A stretch of 11,535 nt of DNA from Candidatus Nanopelagicales bacterium (lineage in GTDB: Bacteria > Actinomycetota > Actinomycetes > S36-B12): assembly GCA_030836325.1 (NCBI GenBank), contig JAURQC010000025.1:1-11535 (forward strand), written 5' to 3'. The translations under genes were made by a program, and so were the position numbers. The notes below the pieces were generated by a model that saw nothing but the letters and a program-made list of their open reading frames with translations, was not told where the DNA came from and ran no database searches. Shown one piece after another: positions 1 to 11,535 of this stretch (positions within the stretch are counted from its first letter, which is position 1; every line of letters starts with the position of its first letter).

Positions 1-1
1 C

Positions 2-1573
2 GATAATGACGGTGACGTTCTGGCTGTGGGCACGAATGCTTCACCGGGAGCGGCGGTGGGCAAGATCGTCTTCGAATCGGCTGATGCCGTCGCCTGGACT
101 GCGCGTGGCGAGCAGGTGATCTTGGTGCGACGGGAGACGAATCCGGACGACCTCGCGGGCATGGTTGCAGCGGCCGGCATTTTGACTAGCCGCGGCGGCA
201 AGACATCGCACGCGGCCGTGGTAGCTCGCGGCATGGGCAAGACGGCCGTGTGCGGTGCGGAATCGATTGAGGTCCGAGGCTCGGAGAAGAAACTCAAGGT
301 GGGGAATCGCGAACTGACCGAAGGTGACGTCATTTCCATCGACGGCAGCACCGGTGAGGTGTTCGCTGGCGAGGTGCCGGTCGTGCAGAGCCCTGTCGTG
401 CGTTACTTCGAAGAAGGTTTGGCCGCCGCGGTGAGTGGCGTCGACGAACCGACCGCCGACCTAGTGCGAGCGGTGGATCGGATCATGGTGCACGCGGATG
501 AATGTCGTCGGTTGGGCGTTCGCACCAACGCTGACACCGGACCAGATTCGGCGCGCGCTCGTCGCATGGGTGCTGAAGGTATTGGTCTGCTGCGCACAGA
601 GCACATGTTCCTCGGTGAGCACAAGAAGTTCGTCGAGAAGCTGATCCTCGCGAGCACTGAGGACGAGCAGCGCGAAGCCTTAGCAGCGCTTCTACCCTTG
701 CAGATCGCCGACTTCACCGACGTTCTCGAGGCCATGGATGGCCTACCGGTGACCATCCGCTTGATCGATCCACCGCTCCACGAGTTCTTGCCCGATCGCA
801 CCGAACTCGCAGTCGAGGTTGCGCTGGATAAGGAGCGCGGGACGGTCGACGAAGCCAAGGTCGGCATCCTTCGTGAGGTCAACCGGCTCGCTGAGCAGAA
901 CCCGATGCTGGGTCTGCGAGGTGTTCGTCTGGGCCTGGTTCTCCCCGGCTTGTTCGCCCTGCAGGTTCGCGCAATCGCGGAGGCGGCCTGTGCTCTGCGC
1001 GCCCAGGGCAAGGACCCACGTGCGGAGATCATGATCCCGCTGGTTGCCACCGCGGCGGAGTTCGAATTCACGCGGGCCGAGGCAGAGCGGGTCCTCGCGG
1101 AGGTTGGACAGAAGAACGGTTGCCCGTTGGACTTCCCGATCGGCACGATGATCGAACTTCCGCGCGCGGCACTGACGGCCGATCGGATCGCCGAGCAAGC
1201 TGAGTTCTTCTCCTTCGGCACTAACGACCTGACCCAGACCACATGGGGATTCAGCCGCGACGACGTCGAGGCGGCCTTCTTCTCGCCCTATCTGGAGATG
1301 GGTGTGTTCTCGGTTTCCCCGTTCGAGTCCCTTGATCGAGAGGGTGTCGGCGCTTTGGTTCAGATGGCGGTGGAGAAGGGGCGCAGTACCCGGCCCGGCC
1401 TGCACTGCGGCGTCTGCGGTGAACACGGCGGAGACCCTGAATCGGTTCACTTCTTTGATGAAGTAGGTCTGGACTATGTCTCGTGCTCGCCGTTTCGGGT
1501 GCCTGTGGCACGACTGGAGGCCGGTCGGTCTGCGATCGAAAAGGCCGGAGGAAAGGGCAGCGACACCCGTTAG
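2..1573 (+). CDS. ppdK: Pyruvate, phosphate dikinase, C-terminal part (5' end outside window)
   Basis: PPDK interconverts pyruvate, ATP and phosphate with phosphoenolpyruvate, AMP and diphosphate in the cytoplasm. The reading frame is open to the left edge, so the N-terminal ATP-grasp region is missing; about 520 of the roughly 880 residues usual for the family are present. The GTG at 26 is internal, because the in-frame codons before it continue the gene. The swivelling phosphohistidine domain comes first, with the motif TSHAAVVARGMG and its catalytic His codon at 209-211. The PEP/pyruvate TIM-barrel domain follows, with GIGLLRTEHMF, GLRGVRLG, SFGTNDLTQTTWGFSRDD and the signature CGVCGEHGGDP, whose second Cys (codon 1415-1417) is the expected catalytic acid. 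The end, DYVSCSPFRVPVARLEA, matches the normal PPDK C-terminus, so the 3' end is intact. These motifs, the CGEHGG signature above all, separate it from PEP synthase and enzyme I. Confidence 0.97.
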   Translation, partial: DNDGDVLAVGTNASPGAAVGKIVFESADAVAWTARGEQVILVRRETNPDDLAGMVAAAGILTSRGGKTSHAAVVARGMGKTAVCGAESIEVRGSEKKLKVGNRELTEGDVISIDGSTGEVFAGEVPVVQSPVVRYFEEGLAAAVSGVDEPTADLVRAVDRIMVHADECRRLGVRTNADTGPDSARARRMGAEGIGLLRTEHMFLGEHKKFVEKLILASTEDEQREALAALLPLQIADFTDVLEAMDGLPVTIRLIDPPLHEFLPDRTELAVEVALDKERGTVDEAKVGILREVNRLAEQNPMLGLRGVRLGLVLPGLFALQVRAIAEAACALRAQGKDPRAEIMIPLVATAAEFEFTRAEAERVLAEVGQKNGCPLDFPIGTMIELPRAALTADRIAEQAEFFSFGTNDLTQTTWGFSRDDVEAAFFSPYLEMGVFSVSPFESLDREGVGALVQMAVEKGRSTRPGLHCGVCGEHGGDPESVHFFDEVGLDYVSCSPFRVPVARLEAGRSAIEKAGGKGSDTR

Positions 1574-1613
1574 ACAGCCGGTACACGCCCTTCGCCAAGA
1601 AGTTTGAATAGTC

Positions 1614-1619
1614 GAGGAG
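1614..1619 (+). promoter_or_regulatory. Shine-Dalgarno site for the secreted protein
   Basis: GAGGAG lies seven bases before the GTG at 1627. It fixes GTG as the start and places it directly before a typical signal peptide. Confidence 0.7.
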
Positions 1620-1626
1620 TGTTGTT

Positions 1627-2256
1627 GTGAAATCACTAGTCCTGGCGGCGACCGCAGCGTTGTCGTTGGCTTTCGCCGGCCCGGCGGTAGCGGCCACAGA
1701 GCAAATTCCCGTTCAAGCGACCAAGGCGAGCGTCGATAGTTGGGTGGGACAGGCTTCGTCGCACGACATGCGAGTGAGCACTCGCTACAACCTCGATGAA
1801 GGTGTTGAGCGGGACTGTGGAATCTCGGCCGCCGGCTCCTCTGACTGTGCGGTCTTGGACCGAAATCCAGGAAGCGGCAACCCCTACCAGGAAATCCAGG
1901 TGGGGTCGCAACGCTGGAGGCGCGACATTCCCGGTGGCCCTTGGCAACGGCTTATGGACGTTGCGTCGGAGAACCCAATCGCCAACGTGTCTCGCTACTG
2001 GTCGTACAACCCATTTGAGCCGTGGAACGCCAAGAAGGGCGTGACCTGGAAAATGAAGACCAAGACGAATGGTGACGTTGTCATCACCTCAACCATCGCT
2101 AACCCGAGAGACGATGAGCCGAAGCGAACCCGGGTGGCCATTTCTCCGAACGGTCTGCATTTCTCGATCACTGCGAAGGCTGAAAACGGAAGCCGTCTGT
2201 GGCGCACCACGGGAGAGCTCGTGGACGGCGTCGTGGTCACTGCGCCGACGTCCTAG
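1627..2256 (+). CDS. Secreted protein of unknown function
   Basis: A 209-residue protein that I do not recognise. It opens with a clear Sec signal peptide: Lys2, a hydrophobic Ala/Leu stretch, and an AVA|A cleavage site after about residue 22. There is no lipobox Cys, so a soluble exported or wall-associated protein is likely. The mature part has only two cysteines (C64 and C74), which could form a disulfide. It is rich in alternating polar and hydrophobic segments with tryptophans (SQRWRRDIPGGPWQRL, then GVTWKMKTKTNGDVVITSTI). That pattern suggests a beta-sheet half-barrel like those of LolA/LppX-type carrier proteins, but this is only an impression. It starts 53 bases after ppdK, has its own ribosome binding site and is followed by a terminator, so it may be read from the ppdK transcript or alone. 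No catalytic motif is visible. Confidence 0.8.
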   Translation: MKSLVLAATAALSLAFAGPAVAATEQIPVQATKASVDSWVGQASSHDMRVSTRYNLDEGVERDCGISAAGSSDCAVLDRNPGSGNPYQEIQVGSQRWRRDIPGGPWQRLMDVASENPIANVSRYWSYNPFEPWNAKKGVTWKMKTKTNGDVVITSTIANPRDDEPKRTRVAISPNGLHFSITAKAENGSRLWRTTGELVDGVVVTAPTS

Positions 2257-2290
2257 TCACATCGCAGGGGAAAAGTCTTCTGGTTCCGCG

Positions 2291-2328
2291 AGGGCCGCAC
2301 CCGAGATCGGGGTGCGGCCCTGGCTTTT
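2291..2328 (+). terminator. Rho-independent-like terminator after the secreted protein gene
   Basis: AGGGCCGCACCC (2291-2302) pairs perfectly with GGGTGCGGCCCT (2310-2321) across a seven-base loop, giving a 12-bp GC-rich stem. A short T run (CTTTT, 2324-2328) follows. The T tract is weak, as is common in actinobacteria, but the stem is the strongest I saw in the intergenic regions. Confidence 0.75.
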
Positions 2329-2396
2329 GGTCCCGTGATGGATCTGTAACGGTGTCGGAACCGTGAAACGCAAGTGACGCATGTGACTATTGCGCG

Positions 2397-3083
2397 GTGG
2401 CTTCCCCCGCGCTGACGCGCGTTTCTGCAGCGCAGCGTGCCTTCGCACATGCTCCCGCTCGACCCACCTCGCCCTGGTGGTTGCCCGGCTCGGCCCGGAC
2501 CGCCAGCACGCTTCTGCTCACCGTGGTGATTGTCTCTACTTTGATGGTCCCCGTGGGCGCTACGGCCCAGGTGGTTTTGGCCTCGCAGTTCGATGATCGC
2601 TCGCCCACCCAGGCGATCGTGATGCTCGATCCGGGCCGAGTGTGGGGTGATCCCGACGCCACGCGGACCGCGCGAATCGACCACGCAGCTGAGCTCTATC
2701 GCGATCAAGTAGCGCCGGTGGTGATTGTCGCCGGGCCTCCGCGAACCCACGAGGAGACGATCCGGGGCCTGCAGATGCGCGGGGTTCCCGTCGCAGACGT
2801 TGTGACCTTTGACTCCGGCGCGGACACCGTTGGCCCGCTCACCACTGTTGCCTCGGTGATGCGTGACTTGGACTGGGTATCGGCGACCATCGTGACCGAT
2901 CCCGCGCACGCTGCTCGCGTGCAATCCACCGCTGGGGCTCTGGGCATGGACGCACATGTCTCGCCGACCCAATACGGCTCGAATGTCTCCCTGACCTCGG
3001 ACTACGTCGGTAGGGAAGTGGCAGCCCTGTTGCGACACCACTTCGTGACCCGTTGGTCGCTGCCAAACCTCCTGGGCAGTTGA
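2397..3083 (+). CDS. DUF218/YdcF-like membrane-anchored protein
   Basis: A 228-residue protein. The N-terminus has about 35 mostly polar residues, then one hydrophobic segment at about residues 37-62 (STLLLTVVIVSTLMVP), which should anchor it with the domain outside the cytoplasm. From about residue 66 the protein follows the DUF218 (YdcF/SanA/ElyC) plan: a first strand AIVMLDPG, an Arg/Ala-rich helix RTARIDHAAELY, a second strand PVVIVAG, the segment MRGVPVADVVTF, a DT motif, and TIVTDPAHAARVQSTAGALG, matching the usual 'TxxxHxxRa' helix. Members of the family are linked to envelope maintenance, but the reaction is not established. The first motif reads LDPG rather than the common LGGG, so this copy is divergent. 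The start is GTG with no good Shine-Dalgarno; GACTAT ends six bases before it and could be a poor -10 of a leaderless transcript. It precedes dgt by 53 bases on the same strand. Confidence 0.75.
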   Translation: MASPALTRVSAAQRAFAHAPARPTSPWWLPGSARTASTLLLTVVIVSTLMVPVGATAQVVLASQFDDRSPTQAIVMLDPGRVWGDPDATRTARIDHAAELYRDQVAPVVIVAGPPRTHEETIRGLQMRGVPVADVVTFDSGADTVGPLTTVASVMRDLDWVSATIVTDPAHAARVQSTAGALGMDAHVSPTQYGSNVSLTSDYVGREVAALLRHHFVTRWSLPNLLGS

Positions 3084-3124
3084 TTCATCGCCCATAGGCG
3101 GCACGACTGTCGTCCTAGCCTCGC

Positions 3125-3130
3125 TAATGT
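3125..3130 (+). promoter_or_regulatory. Candidate -10 element of a leaderless dgt promoter
   Basis: TAATGT fits the TAnnnT form and ends exactly six bases before the GTG start at 3137, where no Shine-Dalgarno is present. This is the spacing expected if transcription begins at the start codon. I see no convincing -35 box. Confidence 0.45.
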
Positions 3131-3136
3131 CGTGAC

Positions 3137-4390
3137 GTGACGTCTTCACCAAGCGTTCCCGGCTACTCGGACGCGGATACCGCGCGCCTGGTGACTGAGC
3201 CGATCAAGGAGGGTGTGCGCAGCCCGTTCTCGCGGGATCGTGCGCGTGTCCTGCACTCGGCAGGCCTACGGCGACTCGCAGCCAAGACGCAGGTCATGGT
3301 GGCCGGTCAAGACGACTTCCCGCGCACGCGACTCACCCACACTCTCGAGGTGGCCCAGATCGCCCGCGAACTCGGTGAGGCACTGGGGTGCGATCCGGAC
3401 GTCGTCGAAGTTGCCGGTCTTGCGCATGATCTCGGTCATCCACCCTTCGGACACAACGGCGAGGAAGAACTCAACCGTCTTGCCGACTCCATCGGGGGAT
3501 TCGAGGGCAACGCGCAGACCCTGCGGGTTCTCACCAGGCTCGAAGCGAAGGTCTACGACGACTCCTTGGATCGCAGCGTCGGTTTGAACCTCACACGCGC
3601 TTGTTTAGACGCCTCGTGCAAGTACCCGTGGGCACGTGGATTCGGTGGTCCCGGCTACGAACGCAAGTTCGGCTACTACGCCGACGACGCCGACGTCTAT
3701 TCGTGGGTCCGCGAAGGTGCGCCGGGGGAGCGGACTTGCTTAGAAGAGCAGGTGATGGACTGGAGTGACGACGTCGCCTACTCGGTCCACGACGTCGAGG
3801 ACGCGGTCCATGTCGGTCTTATCAAGGTGGATCTGTTCGACGATGATGAGGCGCGACGCGAGGTCGTGGATATCGCCCGTCGTCGGTACCTGCCATCGGC
3901 CACAGATGATGAACTAGATGAGGCGATCACGCGGCTTACCAGCCTCGAGTATTGGCCCACCGAGTTCAACGGAACTCATCGAGACATGGTGAATCTGAAA
4001 CGGTTCACGAGTTACCTGATCGGGCGTTTTTGTGTAACCGCTCAGATTGCAACGCAGATGGAGTTCGGTGATAAACCACTGACGCGATACGCGGCTCACC
4101 TCGTCGTTCCCGATGAAGTCCGCGCCGAGGTTGCGGCAATGAAAGCGATCACCGCCGCGTTCGTGATGCAGCGACCTGGAGCAGAGCCTGAGTACGCGCG
4201 CCAGCGTGAGGTAATCGCCGAACTTGTGCACGCATTGACTCTGGACGAGGGGCGGTCTCTGGAGTCCTGGCTACTGCCGACCTATCGGGCAGCGACTACC
4301 GATGGCGAGCGCTTCCGGGTGATCATCGACCAGGTAGCCAGCCTGACCGACGTCAGCGTCTTGGCCTGGCACCAGCGTCTCGTGCGCTAA
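3137..4390 (+). CDS. dgt: Deoxyguanosinetriphosphate triphosphohydrolase-like protein (HD domain)
   Basis: A 417-residue cytoplasmic enzyme expected to split dGTP, or related dNTPs, into nucleoside and triphosphate, and so to control the dNTP pool. The HD metal site is complete: His68 in RTRLTHTLEVAQIA, His97-Asp98 in AGLAHDLGHPPFGHNG with His101 and His106 close by, and the distal Asp in WSDDVAYSVHDVED at about residue 211. The N-terminus (YSDADTARLV, then RDRARVLHSAGLRRLAAKTQV) matches the actinobacterial Dgt form, which supports the GTG at 3137. The length is normal for the shorter type-2 Dgt proteins. In many actinobacteria dgt lies directly before dnaG; here a toxin-antitoxin pair lies between them. 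Substrate preference cannot be read from sequence, so 'dGTPase-like' is the safe name. Confidence 0.95.
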   Translation: MTSSPSVPGYSDADTARLVTEPIKEGVRSPFSRDRARVLHSAGLRRLAAKTQVMVAGQDDFPRTRLTHTLEVAQIARELGEALGCDPDVVEVAGLAHDLGHPPFGHNGEEELNRLADSIGGFEGNAQTLRVLTRLEAKVYDDSLDRSVGLNLTRACLDASCKYPWARGFGGPGYERKFGYYADDADVYSWVREGAPGERTCLEEQVMDWSDDVAYSVHDVEDAVHVGLIKVDLFDDDEARREVVDIARRRYLPSATDDELDEAITRLTSLEYWPTEFNGTHRDMVNLKRFTSYLIGRFCVTAQIATQMEFGDKPLTRYAAHLVVPDEVRAEVAAMKAITAAFVMQRPGAEPEYARQREVIAELVHALTLDEGRSLESWLLPTYRAATTDGERFRVIIDQVASLTDVSVLAWHQRLVR

Positions 4391-4393
4391 ATA

Positions 4394-4420
4394 GCTACGT
4401 CATGCTACGTTTGTAGCATG
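4394..4420 (+). promoter_or_regulatory. Operator/promoter of the toxin-antitoxin pair: perfect palindrome over the start codon
   Basis: CATGCTAC (4401-4408), spacer GTTT, then GTAGCATG (4413-4420) form a perfect 8-bp inverted repeat whose last three bases are the antitoxin ATG. A further GCTAC half-site lies at 4394-4398, exactly ten bases (one helical turn) upstream of the GCTAC in the left arm. TACGTT (4406-4411) fits TAnnnT and ends six bases before the ATG, so the promoter is probably leaderless and buried in the operator. Antitoxins of the Phd/YefM family bind palindromes at their own promoter, so autorepression here is the natural reading. Confidence 0.75.
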
Positions 4421-4690
4421 ACTGAAGTTCCTATTAGGGATTTGCGCAATGAAACCTCTGTGCTGGTGCAACGTGCCCAAGCCGGCGAGGACATCGTCAT
4501 CACGGTCCGAGGAGTTCCTACGGCAAGACTCGTCCCTATTCCGCAGGGGCGGCGAACATCCTTTCCGGGTGCCGAGTTCTTTGCTCGCCTACCTAGCTAC
4601 CAGGCTGATTCGCAGATGGCTGCCGACCTGAAGGCGATGGGTGCAGAGGAGACGGACGTGGTCGGCCCCTGGGTGGACGGACGGCAGTGA
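4418..4690 (+). CDS. Phd/YefM-family antitoxin
   Basis: A 90-residue protein expected to bind and neutralise the PIN toxin encoded directly after it, and to repress the operon. The N-terminal half (VPIRDLRNETSVLVQRAQAG, then DIVITVRGVPTARLVPI) is the classic Phd/YefM DNA-binding and dimer fold: a short strand, a helix with the R-N-x-x-S-x-L pattern, and the 'itrrGkpvArLvp' hairpin. The C-terminal half (about residues 46-90) has no fixed structure signature and is the likely toxin-binding tail, containing PSYQADSQMAADLKAMGAEE. The start codon lies inside the palindromic operator, and its TGA stop overlaps the toxin GTG start (GTGA, 4687-4690), which points to translational coupling. Functionally it is a VapB-type partner, though its fold class is Phd. 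Confidence 0.9.
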   Translation: MTEVPIRDLRNETSVLVQRAQAGEDIVITVRGVPTARLVPIPQGRRTSFPGAEFFARLPSYQADSQMAADLKAMGAEETDVVGPWVDGRQ

Positions 4691-5085
4691 CTCAGCAAGT
4701 CCTTCTCGACACCAGTGTCTTCATCGCCCTCGAGACCCAGCGCACCCTCAGAGCCGATCCCGACAATTGGGATGTGCGCATAAGTCCGATCACGATTGCT
4801 GAACTTAAGGCGGGGGTTCTCGCTGCACAGACCACTCAGCAGCGTCTTTCGCGCCTGCGGACGGTTGAAATGGCCGTCGAGATTCCGATGCTGGGAATCG
4901 ATGAATGGGTGGCCGACGAGTGGGCAGCACTTCGAAGTTGGTTGGCAGATGCTGGCCGCAGGTTGGATGTCAACGATCTATGGCTTGCGGCAACAGCCGC
5001 ACGACACAGCATTCCTCTCATCACCCAGGACACGGACTTCTTCGTCGTTTCGGGTGTTCGCGGGCTCGAGGTAGTCCAGGTCTAG
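4687..5085 (+). CDS. vapC: PIN-domain toxin, VapC type
   Basis: A 132-residue protein made of a single PIN domain, the fold of metal-dependent VapC ribonucleases that cut tRNA or rRNA. The acidic residues expected at the active site are all visible: Asp8 (VLLDTSVFIALE), Glu39 (ITIAELKAG), Asp97 (VNDLWLAATA), and Asp115/Asp117 (ITQDTDFF). The toxin therefore looks intact and probably active. It starts with GTG overlapping the antitoxin stop by four bases. The length is typical for VapC. The RNA target cannot be predicted from sequence. Its stop lies only five bases before the probable -10 of dnaG, so the pair fills nearly the whole gap between dgt and dnaG. Confidence 0.92.
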   Translation: MTQQVLLDTSVFIALETQRTLRADPDNWDVRISPITIAELKAGVLAAQTTQQRLSRLRTVEMAVEIPMLGIDEWVADEWAALRSWLADAGRRLDVNDLWLAATAARHSIPLITQDTDFFVVSGVRGLEVVQV

Positions 5086-5096
5086 CGACCTAAGAT
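5078..5096 (+). promoter_or_regulatory. Candidate leaderless dnaG promoter with adjacent inverted repeat
   Basis: TAAGAT (5091-5096) is a good -10 hexamer ending six bases before the dnaG ATG, where no well-placed Shine-Dalgarno exists. Directly upstream, and sharing its last base with this hexamer, AGGTC (5078-5082) and GACCT (5087-5091) form a perfect 5-bp inverted repeat around TAGC. A protein bound there would cover the promoter. The repeat also spans the vapC stop codon. It is short enough to occur by chance. Confidence 0.45.
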
Positions 5097-5102
5097 CAAG
5101 GT

Positions 5103-6923
5103 ATGGCTGGGCGCATTCGAGACGAGGACGTAGCCCTCGTTCGTGAGCGTGCCCGGATTGATGAGGTAGTGCGTGAGTACGTCACGCTCAAGTCAGCAGG
5201 TGGGGGAAGTCTCAAGGGGCTGTGTCCCTTCCACGATGAGCGATCGCCAAGTTTCCACGTCACCCCGAGCCGTGGAATGTGGTACTGCTTCGGCTGCGGT
5301 GAGGGTGGCGATGTCATCAACTTTGTCCAGCGCGTCGATCACCTTTCCTTTGCCGAGACCATCGAGAAGCTGGCGGACAAAGCCGGAGTCCAATTGCGGT
5401 ATGTCGAGGGCAGCGCTGCGATCAACCGACAGCAGGGAGTCCGAACCCGACTCGTCGAAGCACACAAGGTGGCGGCGGCGTTCTATCGCGAGCAACTTCA
5501 GACACCTGCAGCGCAGGTGGGTCGTGAGTTCTTAAAATCGCGTGGTTTCGACGCCGCAAGCGCCGAGCACTTCGGGGTTGGCTACGCACCTCAGTCGTGG
5601 GATGCCCTGCGCTCACACCTGAAAGACAAGGGTTTCACCGATGAGGAAATGCTCGCCGGGGGATTGGTCAGTCAGGGCAACCGTGGAGTTTACGACCGCT
5701 TTCGTGGTCGGTTGGTCTGGCCGATTCGTGACCTAGGTGGCGATGTCATCGGCTTTGGTGCACGCAAGTTGACCGACGACGACGACGGCCCGAAATACCT
5801 GAACACTCCCGAGACACCCATATACAAGAAGTCTCAGGTGCTGTATGGCATCGACCTCGCACGCAAGGAGATCTCCAAGAATCAGCAGGCGGTGATCGTC
5901 GAGGGATACACCGACGTCATGGCGTGCCATCTTGCCGGTGTCACGACAGCGGTTGCAACGTGCGGAACATCGTTCGGCACCGATCACATCAAGGTGCTTC
6001 GACGTTTGTTGATGGACGACGATCAAATGAAAGGCCAGGTGGTCTTCACTTTCGATGGTGATGCCGCAGGACAGAAGGCAGCTATGCGCGCCTTTGCCGA
6101 GGATCAGAAGTTCGTCTCGCAGACGTTCGTCGCCGTTGAATCCCACGGTCTGGATCCGTGTGATCTTCGCCTTGAACATGGGGACGCGGCCGTGAATTCG
6201 CTGGTGGAAAACCGCGTGCCGCTATTCGAGTTCGCGATCAAGTCGACCATCGCTGCCTACGACCTTGAATCCGCCGAGGGCAGGATTGCGGCCTTGCGGG
6301 AGGCCGCACCGATCGTAAGCAAGATCCGCGATTCGGCCCTTCGTCCGGAGTACGCGCGTCGCCTGGCTGGCTGGATCGGTATTGACGTCGCGCAGGTGAC
6401 CAAGGCGGTTGGAGGCTCTGCTCCTGCTGCACCCACCTCTACTCGCGCACCGCGCCCTGGTGATCCAGCACTCGTGGTGGAACGCGAGGCGCTGAAGTGC
6501 GCGCTCCAGCACCCGCAGGTGGTGGCTGAGTGGTACGCATCGGTCGAGACTCCGGCATTCACCCACCCCCGAGCCATCCGCGTGCACGAGGCGATCGTTG
6601 CAGCAGGTGGCCCCCAAGAGGGCCGCGACGGATTAGCTTGGATCGATTCGGTGCTCGAGGAATGTCCGGATGACGAGGTGCGCTCGCTGATTCGCGAACT
6701 CGCGGTCGAGCCTCTGCCCGCGATGGAGGGCTACGACTCGCGCTACGCGATCGGGGTTATCGCGCGGTTGCTCGAAGTCGATGCGGGCCGACGGATCGAA
6801 GATCTCATGGGTCGCCTTCAGCGGTCTGAGGATCCTGCCGAGCAAGAGCGCCTGGGCCAGGACTTGCAAGCCCTGCAGCAATATCGGCGCAGCCTGTTGA
6901 AGGAAGCGGTGGGAACTACATGA
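5103..6923 (+). CDS. dnaG: DNA primase
   Basis: The replication primase makes RNA primers for lagging-strand synthesis and works with the DnaB helicase. All domains are present in order in 606 residues. The N-terminal CHC2 zinc finger has ligands Cys41, His44, Cys62 and Cys65 (CPFHDE to YCFGCGEGGD). The primase core follows at about residues 120-250. The Toprim domain has Glu267 (VIVEGYTDVM) and Asp318/Asp320 (FDGDAAGQKA) for metal binding, then DPCDL at 352. A proline/alanine-rich linker near residues 432-448 leads to the helical helicase-binding C-terminus. The N-terminal MAGRIRDEDVALVRERARIDEVV matches actinobacterial DnaG and fixes the ATG at 5103. Its TGA overlaps the next gene's ATG (ATGA, 6920-6923), so the two are co-translated. 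It is uncommon for a toxin-antitoxin operon to lie just upstream, as it could affect dnaG expression by read-through. Confidence 0.98.
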   Translation: MAGRIRDEDVALVRERARIDEVVREYVTLKSAGGGSLKGLCPFHDERSPSFHVTPSRGMWYCFGCGEGGDVINFVQRVDHLSFAETIEKLADKAGVQLRYVEGSAAINRQQGVRTRLVEAHKVAAAFYREQLQTPAAQVGREFLKSRGFDAASAEHFGVGYAPQSWDALRSHLKDKGFTDEEMLAGGLVSQGNRGVYDRFRGRLVWPIRDLGGDVIGFGARKLTDDDDGPKYLNTPETPIYKKSQVLYGIDLARKEISKNQQAVIVEGYTDVMACHLAGVTTAVATCGTSFGTDHIKVLRRLLMDDDQMKGQVVFTFDGDAAGQKAAMRAFAEDQKFVSQTFVAVESHGLDPCDLRLEHGDAAVNSLVENRVPLFEFAIKSTIAAYDLESAEGRIAALREAAPIVSKIRDSALRPEYARRLAGWIGIDVAQVTKAVGGSAPAAPTSTRAPRPGDPALVVEREALKCALQHPQVVAEWYASVETPAFTHPRAIRVHEAIVAAGGPQEGRDGLAWIDSVLEECPDDEVRSLIRELAVEPLPAMEGYDSRYAIGVIARLLEVDAGRRIEDLMGRLQRSEDPAEQERLGQDLQALQQYRRSLLKEAVGTT

Positions 6924-7429
6924 GGTTCAGGCGGGACAAGTTGGACTCGACAGCGCGTGATCGAGTGGGGATTCCCCGCGGTGAGCGCATAATCGCCTGG
7001 GGCGTAGGAAGCGCGTCCGAACCCGACGCCTCCCTGGTGGTCGCCACAAGTTCCGCGCTGTACGAGCAGCGCACCGGTCAGCGGATTGAGTGGCAGCAGG
7101 TGGCGAAGGGAACGTGGGAGCAACCGGAATTCGTCATTGACTTCGAAGACTCCGGCGCGTTGCGACGCATTCGCATCCGCATCGACGATGCCCGTGATCT
7201 CCCTGCCGCAGTTCGGGACCGAGTTACCGACACCGTCGTTATTTCCGAGCACCGGAACCTCGTAGGAGAGCAGGGAGCCCAATTCGTCGCCCGGCGCACC
7301 CCGGACGGCGATCTCGAGGACATCCAATGGTCCGTCGTCTTCGACTCTGGGTTGGATCCCACCGACCCAACCCTGCGTCAGCGAGCCGACGCGGAGCTCG
7401 CGGCGCTACGGGCATCCCTGGGCGTGTGA
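6920..7429 (+). CDS. Conserved hypothetical protein coupled to dnaG
   Basis: A 169-residue protein whose ATG overlaps the dnaG stop by four bases, so it should be made together with primase. It has no signal peptide or membrane segment. The first half has the pattern 'GERIIAWG... LVVATSSALYE... GQRIEWQQVAKGTW', strands ending in an aromatic residue before a basic loop, which resembles the small PH-like domains common in actinobacterial hypothetical proteins. This likeness is an inference. The second half is charged and ends in a helix (RQRADAELAALRASLGV). No catalytic motif is visible and I cannot assign a function; the coupling to dnaG is the only hint. Confidence 0.8.
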   Translation: MRFRRDKLDSTARDRVGIPRGERIIAWGVGSASEPDASLVVATSSALYEQRTGQRIEWQQVAKGTWEQPEFVIDFEDSGALRRIRIRIDDARDLPAAVRDRVTDTVVISEHRNLVGEQGAQFVARRTPDGDLEDIQWSVVFDSGLDPTDPTLRQRADAELAALRASLGV

Positions 7430-7466
7430 CTGAGTATCGTGTTGATAGCCTTTCCCGGCTTGATAG

Positions 7467-7539
7467 TCCCCCATAGCTCAATTGGCAGAGCATTCGACTG
7501 TTAATCGAAGGGTTATTGGTTCGAGTCCAATTGGGGGAG
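7467..7539 (+). tRNA. tRNA-Asn (anticodon GTT)
   Basis: A complete 73-nt cloverleaf. The acceptor stem TCCCCCA/TGGGGGA (7467-7473 with 7532-7538) is perfect. The D stem is GCTC/GAGC (7476-7479 with 7488-7491). The anticodon stem TTCGA/TCGAA (7493-7497 with 7505-7509) holds the loop CTGTTAA with anticodon GTT at 7500-7502. The T stem ATTGG/CCAAT (7515-7519 with 7527-7531) encloses TTCGAGT. The variable loop has five bases, and the discriminator base is G. CCA is not encoded. The 3' half is copied at 9290-9335, which marks this gene as a probable integration target; the copy here is the intact, functional one. Confidence 0.97.
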
Positions 7540-7540
7540 C
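7495..7540 (+). repeat. Left copy of 46-bp direct repeat (candidate att site in tRNA-Asn)
   Basis: This segment, from inside the anticodon arm to one base past the tRNA 3' end, matches 9290-9335 at 44 of 46 positions. The differences are T7505/C9300 and G7536/C9331. tRNA 3' halves are classic attB sequences for tyrosine integrases, and an incoming element normally restores the tRNA end, as seen here. Confidence 0.85.
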
Positions 7541-7561
7541 TAGCACCCCGTTTGTCCGCTC

Positions 7562-7583
7562 CCCTTGCGCAAGCCCTTGCGCA
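7562..7583. repeat. Short direct and inverted repeat upstream of the propeller gene
   Basis: CCCTTGCGCA occurs at 7562-7571 and again at 7574-7583, a 12-base period. The same segment is also a hairpin: TGCGCAAG (7566-7573) and CTTGCGCA (7576-7583) are perfect inverted arms separated by CC. It sits between the tRNA end and the propeller gene. It could be a protein-binding site for regulation or recombination, or part of the tRNA transcript end; no T tract follows. Confidence 0.5.
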
Positions 7584-7612
7584 TTGATCTCTGGCGCGCT
7601 TAGGTCGGGCCT

Positions 7613-9241
7613 ATGACGCCTGTGCTTCGTGCCGCAAAGACCAAGATGACCGCCATCGCTGCCAGCGTGGCCCTCGGGATCGGATGCCTGGTGGCCGGCG
7701 CGCCGCCTGCCGCGGCGGCGCCAGGTGATGTGACGCCATACCTCGTGGGTGACGGGGCTACGCCGGCGGACATCATCACTGCTCCTGACGGCACGATGTG
7801 GGCTGCGAACGAAGGAGCCAATTCGATATCCCGAGTGACGACGGACGGGCAAATCACGTCGTTCCCGGTTCCGGGAGTTGGGCCCAACTCTCTGGTGTTT
7901 GGTCCGGATGGAGCCGTGTGGTTCACCTACTCGGGGACTTCGGCGATTGGGCGCATGGACACGAGCGGCAATGCTCGGAATTTTCCGACGGGAGTCCCCA
8001 ACGGACGCGGAAGCGACATCGTGGTGGGTTACGACAGCAAAATGTGGTTCACCATGCCCGACGCGCAACTCATCGGTCGCATAAGCACGGCTGGTGAAAT
8101 AGTCAGGTATTCAGGTGTTGGCGCCGCGGAGTCAATTGCCGTTGGCCCAGTGCGAAGTGGAGAGATGTATTTCAGCTCAGGAGTACGCGGGCTGGGAGCG
8201 ATCGCTGCACTCTCGGGTGCACGACGTTTCATAACGACTCCAGGTGCTACGTCGACCGGCCCGATACATAACGCCGGGGGCAACGTTTGGTTCGAGATGA
8301 CCGATGCTCAAGGTCGAGTCAAGCTGGGGAAAGCAACGCGTACGGGGATCGTTGAGGTTGACGTTCCGCGAATCGCCAACGTAAATCAGATAGCGACTGG
8401 TCCGGACAAGTCCGTGTACATCACGGACACTGCTAGCCAGCGCATCGTTCACGTCACCGCCGATGGTGCGGTTGCGGCGGTCTTCAATTCGGGAGCCGAT
8501 GCACACTCGTCGACACTGGGTGAGGATGGGAATCTGTGGGTGGCTGCCGGGACGAGCAGCACCCAAGGTCAGATCCGCCGGATTCTGACCGGCATCGTTC
8601 CGACGTTGGTCGTCAACTCCCGCCCCTTCACCACGCCTTCGACTGGACTTTCCTCGGGGTCTCGAGTGTTGGCCAATAAGGCCGTCTGGAAGTACGAACC
8701 GTCCAGCTACGCCTACCAGTGGCAGGCATGTGCCGACCAGACGGAAACGACCTGTGTTGACATTCCCGGTGCTACGGGATCGTCCTACATCGTGGCTGAT
8801 TCGGATGTTGGAAAATACGTTCGCGTTGGGGTTACTGCAACGAACTTGAACGGTGCTTCAAGTCCGGCCTTTAGCAGGCCAGCGGCCACAGACGGTGCCG
8901 CAGGCGGTAATGCTCCAGGGCTGTCCACGGTGGCTTCCATTGGGGGTGAGTACACCATGCAGCTGCGTGCCCCGAACAAGCAGAAGCGCAACAAGCGCGA
9001 GTACTACATCGTTACCTTCTCCGCGGCAGATACCGAGGGCACGGTCACATTTCAGTTCCGCAAAGGCAATCGCACGAAGACAAGGACCGTAACGATCTCT
9101 GATGACGAAGCCTTTTACCGGTGGAAGCCCACGCGTAGGTGGCGCAAGGGTTACACAACGGTCACAGCAACGTTCGAGCCGAGCCCCAGCCAAAGTGAAC
9201 TGACTTCCGCGGTCGTGGGAAGCCGGGTGCGAATCCGATAG
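7613..9241 (+). CDS. Exported seven-bladed beta-propeller (Vgb-like) with Ig-like and basic C-terminal domains
   Basis: A 542-residue protein. It begins with a Sec signal peptide (basic n-region with Arg6, Lys9 and Lys11, a hydrophobic core to about residue 29, and cleavage near AAAA at 33-36). Residues about 45-325 hold seven propeller repeats of the form 'gpDG..Wft....I.r....G....f', with DG/W pairs such as PDGTMW, PDGAVW and EDGNLW; this is the virginiamycin B lyase (Vgb)/SMP-30-like fold. Residues about 330-425 form an Ig-like repeat (YQWQACADQ, Cys373 and Cys381, DVGKYVRVGVTATN) typical of actinobacterial surface proteins. Residues about 440-542 are very basic (KQKRNKREYY, RKGNRTKTR, RWRKGY) with a beta-rich pattern, possibly for binding wall or polyanionic polymers. 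The histidines of true Vgb lyases are not recognisable in place, so antibiotic cleavage is not supported. It has no sorting signal or C-terminal helix. It is the only gene in the tRNA-flanked interval. Confidence 0.85.
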   Translation: MTPVLRAAKTKMTAIAASVALGIGCLVAGAPPAAAAPGDVTPYLVGDGATPADIITAPDGTMWAANEGANSISRVTTDGQITSFPVPGVGPNSLVFGPDGAVWFTYSGTSAIGRMDTSGNARNFPTGVPNGRGSDIVVGYDSKMWFTMPDAQLIGRISTAGEIVRYSGVGAAESIAVGPVRSGEMYFSSGVRGLGAIAALSGARRFITTPGATSTGPIHNAGGNVWFEMTDAQGRVKLGKATRTGIVEVDVPRIANVNQIATGPDKSVYITDTASQRIVHVTADGAVAAVFNSGADAHSSTLGEDGNLWVAAGTSSTQGQIRRILTGIVPTLVVNSRPFTTPSTGLSSGSRVLANKAVWKYEPSSYAYQWQACADQTETTCVDIPGATGSSYIVADSDVGKYVRVGVTATNLNGASSPAFSRPAATDGAAGGNAPGLSTVASIGGEYTMQLRAPNKQKRNKREYYIVTFSAADTEGTVTFQFRKGNRTKTRTVTISDDEAFYRWKPTRRWRKGYTTVTATFEPSPSQSELTSAVVGSRVRIR

Positions 9242-9249
9242 GGACAGAA

Positions 9250-9279
9250 AGCGAGCGGTGAAGAAAGGGCACACTCGCT
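9250..9279 (+). other. Weak hairpin after the propeller gene
   Basis: AGCGAG (9250-9255) can pair with CTCGCT (9274-9279), and GTG with CAC can extend the stem across a bulge. It begins nine bases after the propeller stop and could end its transcript, but no T run follows. Confidence 0.3.
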
Positions 9280-9289
9280 GCAAAGCGGG

Positions 9290-9335
9290 CGACTGTTAAC
9301 CGAAGGGTTATTGGTTCGAGTCCAATTGGGCGAGC
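9290..9335 (+). repeat. Right copy of 46-bp repeat: tRNA-Asn 3' fragment (candidate att site)
   Basis: It carries the anticodon loop, T arm and 3' acceptor strand of tRNA-Asn but not the 5' half. Upstream bases give no D arm and no partner for the acceptor strand, and the anticodon stem cannot form because the 5' side is GGCGA instead of TTCGG. It is therefore not a functional tRNA. The matching stretch starts and stops abruptly (CGACTG... to ...GAGC), as expected for a recombination product. Confidence 0.85.
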
Positions 9336-9375
9336 AAAACCGGTAGGTTCGTTTGGCAGTAATTGCCGTTCGATC

Positions 9376-9381
9376 GGAAGG
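9376..9381 (+). promoter_or_regulatory. Shine-Dalgarno site deciding the hydrolase start
   Basis: GGAAGG lies seven bases before GTG at 9389. The alternative in-frame TTG at 9353 has no such site and lies only 18 bases after the tRNA fragment, so the GTG is preferred. Confidence 0.7.
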
Positions 9382-9388
9382 TGCCATC

Positions 9389-10582
9389 GTGGCTACCCAG
9401 AGGTTCTTCGCCGACGAAGGTTTCGAATTCATGGCGCTCCTGGCTGCCGGGAGTGCGGCATACCGACTCGCGGAAGTCGGAGAGGTCTACGCCACTTGCG
9501 ACAAGATCACCGACGGTGATCCTGACTCGTGGTTCGACCAATGGATGGCCACAGCGGACCGGGTCCGCCGCGTAGCCGAAGATGCCGAAGGACGCGGTGA
9601 CCAAGTCAGCGCCCGGGATGCATTCCTGCGCGCCGCCAACTACACAGCAACGGCCTTCTTCTACGTGCTCGCGACCAAGGACCCGAATCGTTCCTTGCAC
9701 ACCTGGCGTAGCCATCGCCGAGACTTCGATCGGGCGATGAAGCTTTGGCCCACACCGGTGGAGCACATTGAGATCCCCTACGAGGACACCCATCTGCACG
9801 GCTACTTCTGGTCCGGGGGAGAGGGTTCGCGACCGACGGTCATCCTCAACAACGGATCCGATGGACCCGTGACCGACATGTGGATGATGGGTGTGCAAGA
9901 TGCCGTGGCCCGTGGCTGGAATGCAATGACCTTCGACGGACCTGGACAGGGATACGCCCTGTACGAACAGGGTCTCCACTTCCGGTATGACTGGGAGGCC
10001 GTAGTCACACCCGTTGTCGACTACCTGGTTGGCCGCGATGACGTCGACGAACACCGCATCGCCATTGCCGGGTTCAGTCAGGGTGGCTACTGGGTGCCCA
10101 GAGCCGTCGCATTCGAAAAGCGGATCAAGGCCGCCGTGGCCGATCCGGGTGTTGTTCGCGTCGATACGTCTTGGCGCTCGCACCTACCCGACGTGATGAT
10201 CCAACTGCTCGATGCGGGGCAGGACGAGGAGTTCGACGGCTACTTCACCGAGGCGATGAAGAGCGAGCCCAACGTTCGCCGCACACTCCCCAAGCGCATG
10301 GAGCCCTACGGGACAACATCGATGGCCGCGGTTTTGCACGAACTCGAGAAGTGGGACCTCACCGACGTTGCCGGCAAAATCGACTGCTCGCTGCTCATCA
10401 CTAATCCCGAAGATGAGCAGTTCTGGCCCGGCCAGTCGCAAAAGCTCTACGACCTTGCTGGGTCGGCAGACAAGGAACTTCTCTCCTTCACAGCTGCCGA
10501 GGGTGCTAACTGGCATTGCGAACCGATGGCACCAACGCTGCGGGGTCAGCGGATGATGGATTGGCTAGCCGCACGCATGTGA
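9389..10582 (+). CDS. Alpha/beta hydrolase, FrsA / 2,6-dihydroxypseudooxynicotine hydrolase-like
   Basis: A 397-residue cytoplasmic hydrolase. The helical N-terminal cap (about residues 30-120, with DPDSWFDQWMATADRV and ARDAFLRAANYTATAFFY) is characteristic of the FrsA/DHPON-hydrolase branch, whose members cut esters or C-C bonds of aromatic ketones. The catalytic domain follows from about residue 125. It has a VILNNGSDG oxyanion region, the nucleophile Ser230 in GFSQGGYW, a likely acid Asp342 in NPEDEQFW, and His376 in GANWHCEP. All triad residues are in place, so it should be active. The substrate is unknown. The start was set at GTG 9389 from its ribosome binding site. The gene lies just outside the tRNA-Asn repeat, and its last 37 bases overlap the 3' end of the opposite-strand hydrolase gene. 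It has no signal peptide. Confidence 0.88.
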   Translation: MATQRFFADEGFEFMALLAAGSAAYRLAEVGEVYATCDKITDGDPDSWFDQWMATADRVRRVAEDAEGRGDQVSARDAFLRAANYTATAFFYVLATKDPNRSLHTWRSHRRDFDRAMKLWPTPVEHIEIPYEDTHLHGYFWSGGEGSRPTVILNNGSDGPVTDMWMMGVQDAVARGWNAMTFDGPGQGYALYEQGLHFRYDWEAVVTPVVDYLVGRDDVDEHRIAIAGFSQGGYWVPRAVAFEKRIKAAVADPGVVRVDTSWRSHLPDVMIQLLDAGQDEEFDGYFTEAMKSEPNVRRTLPKRMEPYGTTSMAAVLHELEKWDLTDVAGKIDCSLLITNPEDEQFWPGQSQKLYDLAGSADKELLSFTAAEGANWHCEPMAPTLRGQRMMDWLAARM

Positions 10583-11205
10583 TCGAGGAACCAGGCGCCG
10601 GCGAGTTCGGCGACGGTTTCGAGTGCCCCGGGCTCTTCGAATAGGTGCGTGGCTCCCGGCACCACTTCTAGCCGGTGCTCGCATCGCAACTGCCGAGCGG
10701 ACTCCTCATTCCACACCAGCACCTGCTGATCGTCGCCACCGACGATGAACAGCGTTGGCGCAAGGACTTTGCCAAGCCAGCGGCCCGCCAAGTCGACGCG
10801 GCCTCCACGAGAGACGATCGCGGCAACTCCCTTCGGTTGGCTGGCCGCGGACACGAGCGCGGCTGCTGCGCCGGTGCTGGCGCCGAAGAGTCCTAGTGAC
10901 AGGGACGATAGCTCCGAGTCTGTTGCGAGCCACGTTCGAACGCCGGCCACTCGGTCCGCCAACAGATCGATGTCGAAGACGTTCTGGCGTCGTCGTCCCT
11001 CGTCCTCGGTGAGTAGGTCGAACAGCAATGTGCCAAGTCCCTGGTCATTGAGGTAGTCGGCCACTTGCCGGTTGCGTGGGCTATGCCGACTGCTGCCGCT
11101 GCCGTGCACGAAGGCAACCAAACCGGTGGCACCAGGAGGAGTACGGCAGTGCCCGGTCAATGTGGCGGATGCGCCAATGGGGATTGCCACGGCGCTATCG
11201 AGCAT
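10546..11205 (-). CDS. Dienelactone-hydrolase-like alpha/beta hydrolase
   Basis: A 219-residue hydrolase on the minus strand. It shows the oxyanion-loop motif HGSGSSR (34-40), the nucleophile elbow GASTG with Ser110, a probable acid in IVGGDDQQV (Asp158 or Asp159) and His187 in GATHLFEEPG, so the triad is complete. This type matches the small hydrolase domain that follows a phosphoribosyltransferase domain in some actinobacterial proteins, such as mycobacterial Rv0571c as I recall its annotation. Here it is a separate frame whose ATG lies inside the end of the phosphoribosyltransferase gene (11-bp overlap). GAGGG (minus strand, 11213-11217) is seven bases before that ATG, which is why I prefer it to the GTG at 11211. 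The substrate is unknown. Its 3' end overlaps the convergent hydrolase gene. Confidence 0.85.
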   Translation of the reverse strand: MLDSAVAIPIGASATLTGHCRTPPGATGLVAFVHGSGSSRHSPRNRQVADYLNDQGLGTLLFDLLTEDEGRRRQNVFDIDLLADRVAGVRTWLATDSELSSLSLGLFGASTGAAAALVSAASQPKGVAAIVSRGGRVDLAGRWLGKVLAPTLFIVGGDDQQVLVWNEESARQLRCEHRLEVVPGATHLFEEPGALETVAELAGAWFLDHMRAASQSIIR

Positions 11206-11535
11206 GTTCACGCCCTCGAAGGATGCCTAGTACTTCGTCTTCGGATACTTGCGGGAATGATTCGTACTGGGCTCCCACGCTGCCGAACTGCGCAGGAATT
11301 TCCAGGCAGACGAGTTCGTCACTCAGTGCCTCGAGTCGATCTACGGCCTGCTGCGAACCGGTGGGTACGGCAAGGACGACCGATGCCGCTCCTAAGTGGC
11401 GAACAACTGCGATAGCCGCTTCCGCGGTTGCTCCGGTGGCTAGACCATCGTCTACGACGATCACCGTGCGACCCGTGACGTCGATGAGTTCGCGGCCGCC
11501 GCGGAGGGTGAGGATGCGCGAGTCGATGTCGGTCA
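11195..11535 (-). CDS. Phosphoribosyltransferase, C-terminal part (5' end outside window)
   Basis: On the minus strand the frame is open to the right edge, so the N-terminus is missing. The PRPP-binding loop is plain: TVIVVDDGLATGATAEAAI, with the two adjacent Asp residues and the TGAT turn typical of type I phosphoribosyltransferases. The remainder (AVVRHLGAASVVLAVPTGSQ, then EIPAQFGSVGAQYESF) matches the family of conserved actinobacterial phosphoribosyltransferases of unknown base specificity, including the ones fused to dienelactone hydrolase. The V codon at 11462-11464 (GTG) is internal to this motif and should not be taken as a start. The stop overlaps the downstream hydrolase start by 11 bases, so the two proteins are probably co-translated and act together. 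Confidence 0.9.
   Translation of the reverse strand, partial: TDIDSRILTLRGGRELIDVTGRTVIVVDDGLATGATAEAAIAVVRHLGAASVVLAVPTGSQQAVDRLEALSDELVCLEIPAQFGSVGAQYESFPQVSEDEVLGILRGREHAR

Follow-up and report, generated by a model that had tools for sequence, protein, structure and literature searches.

A likely integrase-less, one-gene island between tRNA-Asn and a copy of its 3' half in a Candidatus Nanopelagicales bacterium

We analysed a stretch of 11,535 nucleotides from a Candidatus Nanopelagicales bacterium (assembly GCA_030836325.1, contig JAURQC010000025.1, positions 1 to 11,535 of the forward strand; hereafter, the window), which holds a tRNA-Asn gene, a single gene for a beta-propeller protein, and a second, partial copy of the tRNA. 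The original prediction, made from the sequence alone, regarded this segment as the footprint of integration at a tRNA gene. The segment contains the following features.

7467..7540, + strand: intact tRNA-Asn(GTT), proposed left end of the island (left attachment site, attL); ARAGORN and Rfam
7495..7540, + strand: 46-bp attachment (att) core within the tRNA, from the anticodon arm to the 3' end; repeat comparison
7498..7504, + strand: anticodon loop CTGTTAA, presumed crossover segment
7613..9241, + strand: cargo, a Vgb_lyase-family beta-propeller protein of 542 aa, apparently exported; PF24684
9276..9287, + strand: imperfect palindrome adjoining the right core; weak, recognised by eye
9290..9335, + strand: lone tRNA-Asn 3' half with two differences, proposed right end of the island (attR); repeat comparison

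The tRNA-Asn(GTT) was the single tRNA called by ARAGORN across the whole window. Its 3' part (7495–7540, 46 bp) recurred at 9290–9335 with exactly two mismatches and a spacing of 1,795 bp, as originally described, and 200 dinucleotide-preserving shuffles of the window contained no repeat match at three or fewer mismatches. The second copy was correctly described as lacking the 5' half of the tRNA, as it received neither an ARAGORN call nor an Rfam match at E-values up to 1. The lone half spans the anticodon arm to the tRNA 3' end, an extent that would fit the anticodon class of attachment site tabulated in PMC4383910. Separately, a tRNA-like RNA at 9262–9337 was considered and rejected (fold z-score of -1.35, 18 of 200 shuffles equally stable, no Rfam match).

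Between the tRNA copies lie one long open reading frame (ORF; 7613–9241), the one scanned against Pfam in this interval, and smaller, overlapping ORFs. The long ORF matched PF24684 (Vgb_lyase) with an E-value of 8.8e-40, as well as the solved virginiamycin B lyases 2z2p and 2z2n. With the NCBIfam models of Vgb resistance enzymes it scored 86 and 82, against a cut-off of 600 bits. We read the cargo as an apparently secreted propeller with an Ig-like tail and not as a resistance gene. The single propeller protein of the original prediction was thus recovered, and its export was judged only by eye, from the signal peptide. The gene had no PHROG match, and a pattern search of IMG/VR found no relative of it. 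A global protein search returned relatives at 59–99% identity, with the genomic context of their contigs not in view. A tRNA gene was present in 2 of 16 neighbourhoods of propeller relatives, too few for these proteins to be considered usual tRNA cargo.

In agreement with the original prediction, no integrase was detected in a six-frame search of the window using a hidden Markov model (HMM) built from five integrases. No transfer genes were present in the propeller unit, judged on the ORF list alone, and no genes of integrative and conjugative elements (ICEs) or integrative and mobilizable elements (IMEs) were seen inside it. A promoter scan of 7300–9500 returned no site.

Two genes upstream of the tRNA were named from their sequences as dgt and dnaG. 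A search for relatives with dnaG provided 80 loci, the best 80 of 249 confirmed (loci and genomes are denoted by L and G numbers, respectively). Among genomes whose dnaG is almost complete, the six nearest (G001–G006) showed 86–90% protein identity. Whole-draft searches located the propeller in G002 and G003 (91 and 90%, respectively); the best matches in G001, G004, and G006 reached only 33–35%, and none was found in G005. In L002 and L003, the propeller lies behind tRNA-Asn at the same site as in the window. L002 carries a second tRNA-Asn half 2,122 bp downstream with 0 mismatches, and the L003 contig stops before any second half could appear. L004, whose dnaG is 0.94 identical to that of L002, lacks the unit and has different DNA behind tRNA-Asn, with the contig stopping 411 bp further on. 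L051 is empty, as its tRNA-Asn runs straight into a hairpin that looks terminator-like by eye, and after some further sequence comes a phosphoribosyltransferase gene; in the more distant L023 and L040, a hydrolase gene and a phosphoribosyltransferase gene lie directly behind tRNA-Asn. The L005 contig terminates at tRNA-Asn. In G001, the tRNA-Asn 5' half lies at one contig end, while another contig carries a lone 3' half preceded by other DNA and fused to an L051-type hairpin, followed by the hydrolase and phosphoribosyltransferase genes; this lone half marks the right boundary of another island, with its left end not in view.

This variable occupancy among relatives indicates that the segment is an island. 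The original prediction would have been contradicted had every relative carried the propeller at this position, which is not what we observed. The expected empty site was recovered in part: relatives without the propeller exist and L051 is empty, but no empty site was seen that matches the right flank of the window itself, whose FrsA-like gene is unmatched in the loci fetched from relatives.

Synonymous divergence differed sharply between the unit and its surroundings. At fourfold degenerate sites, the window was identical to L002 at 83/202 (dgt), 107/301 (dnaG), 29/72 (a gene for a 169-aa protein), and 265/314 (propeller) positions, and to L003 at 81/199, 103/299, 28/68, and 261/309 positions, respectively. 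Agreement with L002 was 0.84 for the propeller and 0.36–0.41 for the three upstream genes (eight window genes were tried; the PPDK gene, the DUF218 gene, the antitoxin gene, and the PIN gene gave no row for L002–L004). Nucleotide identity to L002 in 60-bp steps was 0.55–0.80 upstream (0.60 at 7400–7459) and 0.83–1.00 from the tRNA to about 9260, past which L002 holds some 330 bp extra before its tRNA half. The far higher fourfold identity of the propeller, together with high identity beginning at the tRNA, is clear evidence, at the level of sequence comparison, that the unit travelled between lineages. Among 166 genomes of the order, the propeller was matched at an E-value of 1e-60 in 12, and at ≥90% identity only in G002 and G003, the next best match being 41% (eight candidates were scored in some genomes). 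The locus thus combines three marks of a tRNA-targeted island: an intact tRNA with a displaced 3' fragment in the same orientation, empty sites in relatives (L051; also L023 and L040), and contents of horizontal origin (fourfold sites; presence in 2/166 genomes). The att footprint, the variable occupancy, and the horizontal movement of a stretch starting at the tRNA are all apparent from these comparisons.

The same identity profile bears on a different route, in which the tRNA copies offered short homology for RecA after DNA uptake and an integrase only made the original footprint. The tRNA sequence is identical in the window and L002, identity rises at the tRNA, and the two unit-holding genomes have no close tRNA-Asn integrase, all as this route would predict. 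However, the raised identity stops short of the upstream genes, and the genes to the right of the L002 half differ, so that the sequence shared on either side is limited to the two tRNA copies; we consider homologous recombination improbable.

The tRNA-Asn half pattern was present at ≤2 mismatches in 69 of 85 family genomes. Two copies on one contig were found in G002 and G039, and G079 had two on separate contigs, neither classed as lone. The distinct lone halves numbered four (the window, L002, G001, and G039), after L045 and L046 had been rejected as full tRNAs whose 5' half was overlooked by the pattern. Some fuzzy searches used a best-match setting that can skip weaker copies; the scan for tRNA-Thr described below was redone without that behaviour and covered 10 loci. 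The anticipated repeat with other cargo is found in G039, in a second island of 2.34 kb at this tRNA. Behind its tRNA-Asn come genes for a TetR protein, an epimerase/dehydrogenase-type protein, and a protein of 151 aa; the lone half lies at a distance of 2.38 kb, and the HMM detected no integrase. Sequence resembling the G039 right flank starts about 500 bp behind this half and, in G035, about 95 bp behind the tRNA, leaving some 400 bp unexplained. The G039 lone half (L154, 3867–3909) has a C in the anticodon and would read GCT.

The right-flank gene of L002, which is kinase-like by eye and has no Pfam match above the cut-off, was unmatched in G001, G003, and G004 (drafts that may be incomplete), which suggests a second, stacked insertion. 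Behind the L002 propeller (5530–5900) lies a fragment resembling a response regulator that is whole further on (7685–8350), and the L003 contig end carries the same fragment (both by eye).

Enzymes that could act on this site were found on viral contigs. Searching IMG/VR for the tRNA-Asn half returned five contigs, or eight with a looser pattern. In L175, L268/L348, and L350, a lone tRNA-Asn half stands beside a tyrosine integrase of 373–408 aa, identified by PF00589 and phrog_1 in L175, by phrog_1 in L350, and by 60% identity to the L175 enzyme in L268. Beyond these, each carries a small gene that is repressor-like by position only. L349 also has a tRNA-Asn half, but no integrase is in view there. 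The sequence common to the window tRNA, L268, and L350 starts 2 bp ahead of the anticodon loop. Phage integrases with a phage attachment site (attP) of the tRNA-Asn sequence type of the host family therefore exist, in line with the search for a tyrosine integrase with a tRNA-Asn att site that the original prediction proposed for the host genome. The L175 integrase was matched at an E-value of 0.001 in 84/85 family genomes, mostly weakly, and these weak matches are probably Xer-type enzymes; likewise, PF00589 occurred in 84/85 genomes, with none near tRNA-Asn among the matches listed. The best match to the L175 integrase was a broken gene in G009, which lies about 140 bp behind tRNA-Asn and whose pieces match at 76% and 61%; G084 has a broken piece (69%) about 20 bp behind tRNA-Asn, and an integrase fragment in G018 adjoins tRNA-Met instead. 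Given the viral integrases beside lone halves and the broken integrases behind tRNA-Asn, the tRNA-Asn 3' half of these hosts serves a family of phage integrases as attachment site. Full tRNA-Asn genes also occur in phage tRNA clusters, next to tRNA-Leu, in L174, L176, L177, and L178, three of which also include tRNA-Phe and tRNA-Pro within the portion retrieved. The palindrome at the right core was rejected as an integrase signature: a similar one occurs in L002 and in the phage attP of L175, and nothing alike was seen by eye in L107, L154, L268, or L350.

These halves also bear on a tandem duplication of tRNA-Asn, with the second copy subsequently losing its 5' half, which would yield two alike copies in direct orientation, as observed. 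Such a duplication is extremely unlikely, because the copies run from the anticodon arm to the 3' end as in the phage contigs, a horizontally moved gene sits between them, and G001 and G039 have the same type of half with other contents. The integration footprint is instead supported by the relatives, the lone halves with other cargo, and the viral integrases.

We consider it likely that 7495–9335 is an integrase-less, one-gene island, of the cis-mobilizable element (CIME) or additive-island type, that uses the tRNA-Asn att sites of phages and was moved in trans or together with a stacked element. Site-specific recombination in the tRNA-Asn anticodon loop would have created the 1.8 kb island (7495–9335), with the tRNA restored on the left and the 3' half that first belonged to the host pushed to the right end, where it was free to mutate. 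The recombinase would have been supplied from outside, by phage-type tyrosine integrases acting on the tRNA-Asn 3' half, and we infer an enzyme of this type for the window's unit. The unit may have moved in trans as a little circle. The route we hold likelier is in cis, in which a tRNA-Asn phage or island integrates beside the unit and the pair leaves and arrives together; the partner would later excise, leaving the one-gene unit. The unit may still excise.

Several observations weigh against the proposed mobile island. Fourfold sites of the unit diverge by 16% from one lineage to the other, which means that its transfers were not recent, and the two mutations in the window's lone half may have ended its mobility. 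The viral halves are identical to tRNA-Asn sequences found in many family members, and four of their positions deviate from the half in the window. The unit holders G002 and G003 contain no close relative of the integrase (best E-value of 5.6e-7 in G002; 44% over 89 residues in G003). Neither a free circle nor an empty site in the same species was seen, the DNA directly behind the G001 tRNA-Asn lies out of view, and the relatives compared are draft contigs of metagenome-assembled genomes (MAGs) throughout.

The lack of a recombinase in the unit and the two mutations in its right half would also suit a decayed end product, in which a larger prophage or IME at tRNA-Asn lost all but the propeller and its att sites, becoming fixed and unable to move. 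The integrase pseudogenes beside tRNA-Asn in G009 and G084 indicate that such decay occurs in this family. However, the same compact unit is present in two lineages with synonymous divergence far below that of the three upstream genes, and independent decay to identical ends is unlikely unless the partner excised cleanly, which is the island explanation itself; we thus regard decay as unlikely, though less so than homologous recombination.

The unit is a further case of a published kind, the one-gene cassette flanked by tRNA sequence, with clear evidence of transfer. Additive flexible genomic island cassettes with partial tRNA repeats are described in Candidatus Actinomarinales, with transfer between genera reported (PMC7771536), and cassettes with partial tRNA repeats in Candidatus Methylopumilus, where islands range from 330 bp and one coding sequence upwards (PMC10872708). 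As in these, the window's cassette lies at a tRNA with a partial repeat and varies among relatives; it differs in consisting of a single gene, in the identification, within the host family, of phage integrases that have a tRNA-Asn attP, and in the evidence for transfer, which comes from synonymous sites of the unit versus its flanks. CIMEs are described as decayed ICEs or IMEs (PMC5704250). The window's unit likewise keeps attL and attR with no integration or transfer genes between them (one long ORF; HMM; ORF list), and stacking at one tRNA site is likewise a CIME trait, whereas no ICE or IME parent was seen here and the users of the site that were found lie on viral contigs. The Dehalococcoides ssrA islands, 15 of them without an integration module (PMC3146451), are also arranged in tandem between repeats of the target RNA gene's 3' end, but involve a serine recombinase, a transfer-messenger RNA gene, and multi-gene islands. 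The tRNA, the displaced fragment in the right orientation, and the anticodon-loop class agree with Islander-type islands; Islander, which requires an integrase and a length of at least 2 kb (PMC4383910), would miss the unit on both counts, and counts of such gene movement may therefore be too low. At 1.8 kb and with no recombinase found, the unit falls outside the Tycheposons (tRNA border plus tyrosine recombinase, 4–200 kb; PMC10872708), and, as a single propeller gene with no PHROG match, outside phage satellites with packaging or capsid-control genes. In the titles and abstract openings searched, we recognised no report of such units in Nanopelagicales, which reflects the limits of that search and does not prove absence. 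The unit is a minimal case for the question of how integrase-less islands move; with a single gene between two att sites, phages that use the same tRNA, and measured transfer, the smallest mobile unit becomes directly testable.

A similar arrangement may recur at another tRNA. An 18-mer of the tRNA-Thr(CGT) half was found with ≤1 mismatch in 63/85 family genomes (the tRNA gene itself included), and the reversed 18-mer in 0/85. In a biased sample of 24 contigs, picked for holding several copies, 32 intervals of 0.8–7.1 kb separated neighbouring same-strand copies (≤2 mismatches). An integrase trace was found in four intervals (long in L374 and L211; fragments in L366 and L224) and, in L369, just outside the copies; the detector was the HMM of five integrases, which distant ones can escape. 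Not every interval is a clean island, since two copies in each of L361 and L249 were called as tRNA-Thr genes and some G009 copies share little past the 18-mer. Contig C101 of G009 (L240) holds five copies in 11.8 kb (2007, 5099, 6187, 9372, and 11636) and none of these integrases. A more speculative and rather unlikely reading is that the family keeps an integron-like pool of putatively mobile 1–3 kb cassettes, some of one gene, flanked by tRNA-Asn or tRNA-Thr 3' halves and sometimes in recombinase-free arrays, with the integrases of passing phages acting on them in trans. The tRNA half would then correspond to attC, and the arrays that lack an integrase to CALINs (term from PMC11389934).

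The cassettes of L240, between same-orientation tRNA-Thr(CGT) half stretches, are small and comprise a GntR regulator, a Gp49-type gene with a helix-turn-helix partner, and an AbiEi-type gene. Another array of tRNA-Thr(CGT) halves in L359 (G070:C28; 644, 2429, 3217, and 6402) has one orientation and no integrase by HMM. In L211 (G024:C53, 16000–27000), the 3.0 kb segment between tRNA-Thr halves at 4563 and 7559 holds, besides a tyrosine integrase, a gene whose product looks by eye like an exported propeller; adjoining it, 8701–10398 contains an integrase fragment and a gene resembling the window's propeller (by eye).

The genes flanking the unit are as follows.

5103..6923, + strand: left flank, dnaG, the query for finding relatives
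6920..7429, + strand: left flank, gene of a conserved 169-aa protein without a Pfam family, situated between dnaG and tRNA-Asn
9353..10582, + strand: right flank, FrsA-like esterase, native or an older insertion
10546..11211, - strand: right flank, alpha/beta hydrolase
11195..11533, - strand: right flank, phosphoribosyltransferase, runs past the window edge

The alpha/beta hydrolase adjoins tRNA-Asn or its half in G001, G007, and G008 (three of nine genomes searched), and relatives of the phosphoribosyltransferase sit behind tRNA-Asn in L023, L040, and L051. Between dgt and dnaG, the window (4418–5085) carries a Phd/YefM antitoxin and PIN-domain toxin pair without a match in L002–L004; this spot may thus vary too. 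Reverse-strand ORFs enter the tRNA half in the window (9308–9335) and in L002 (5919–5960) and acquire a QLDSNQ tail, which in L002 forms the end of the kinase-like gene. Finally, the MAG records L014, L019, L029, and L061 bear the title Bifidobacterium breve and have a dnaG 71–83% identical to that of the window; these titles look misassigned.
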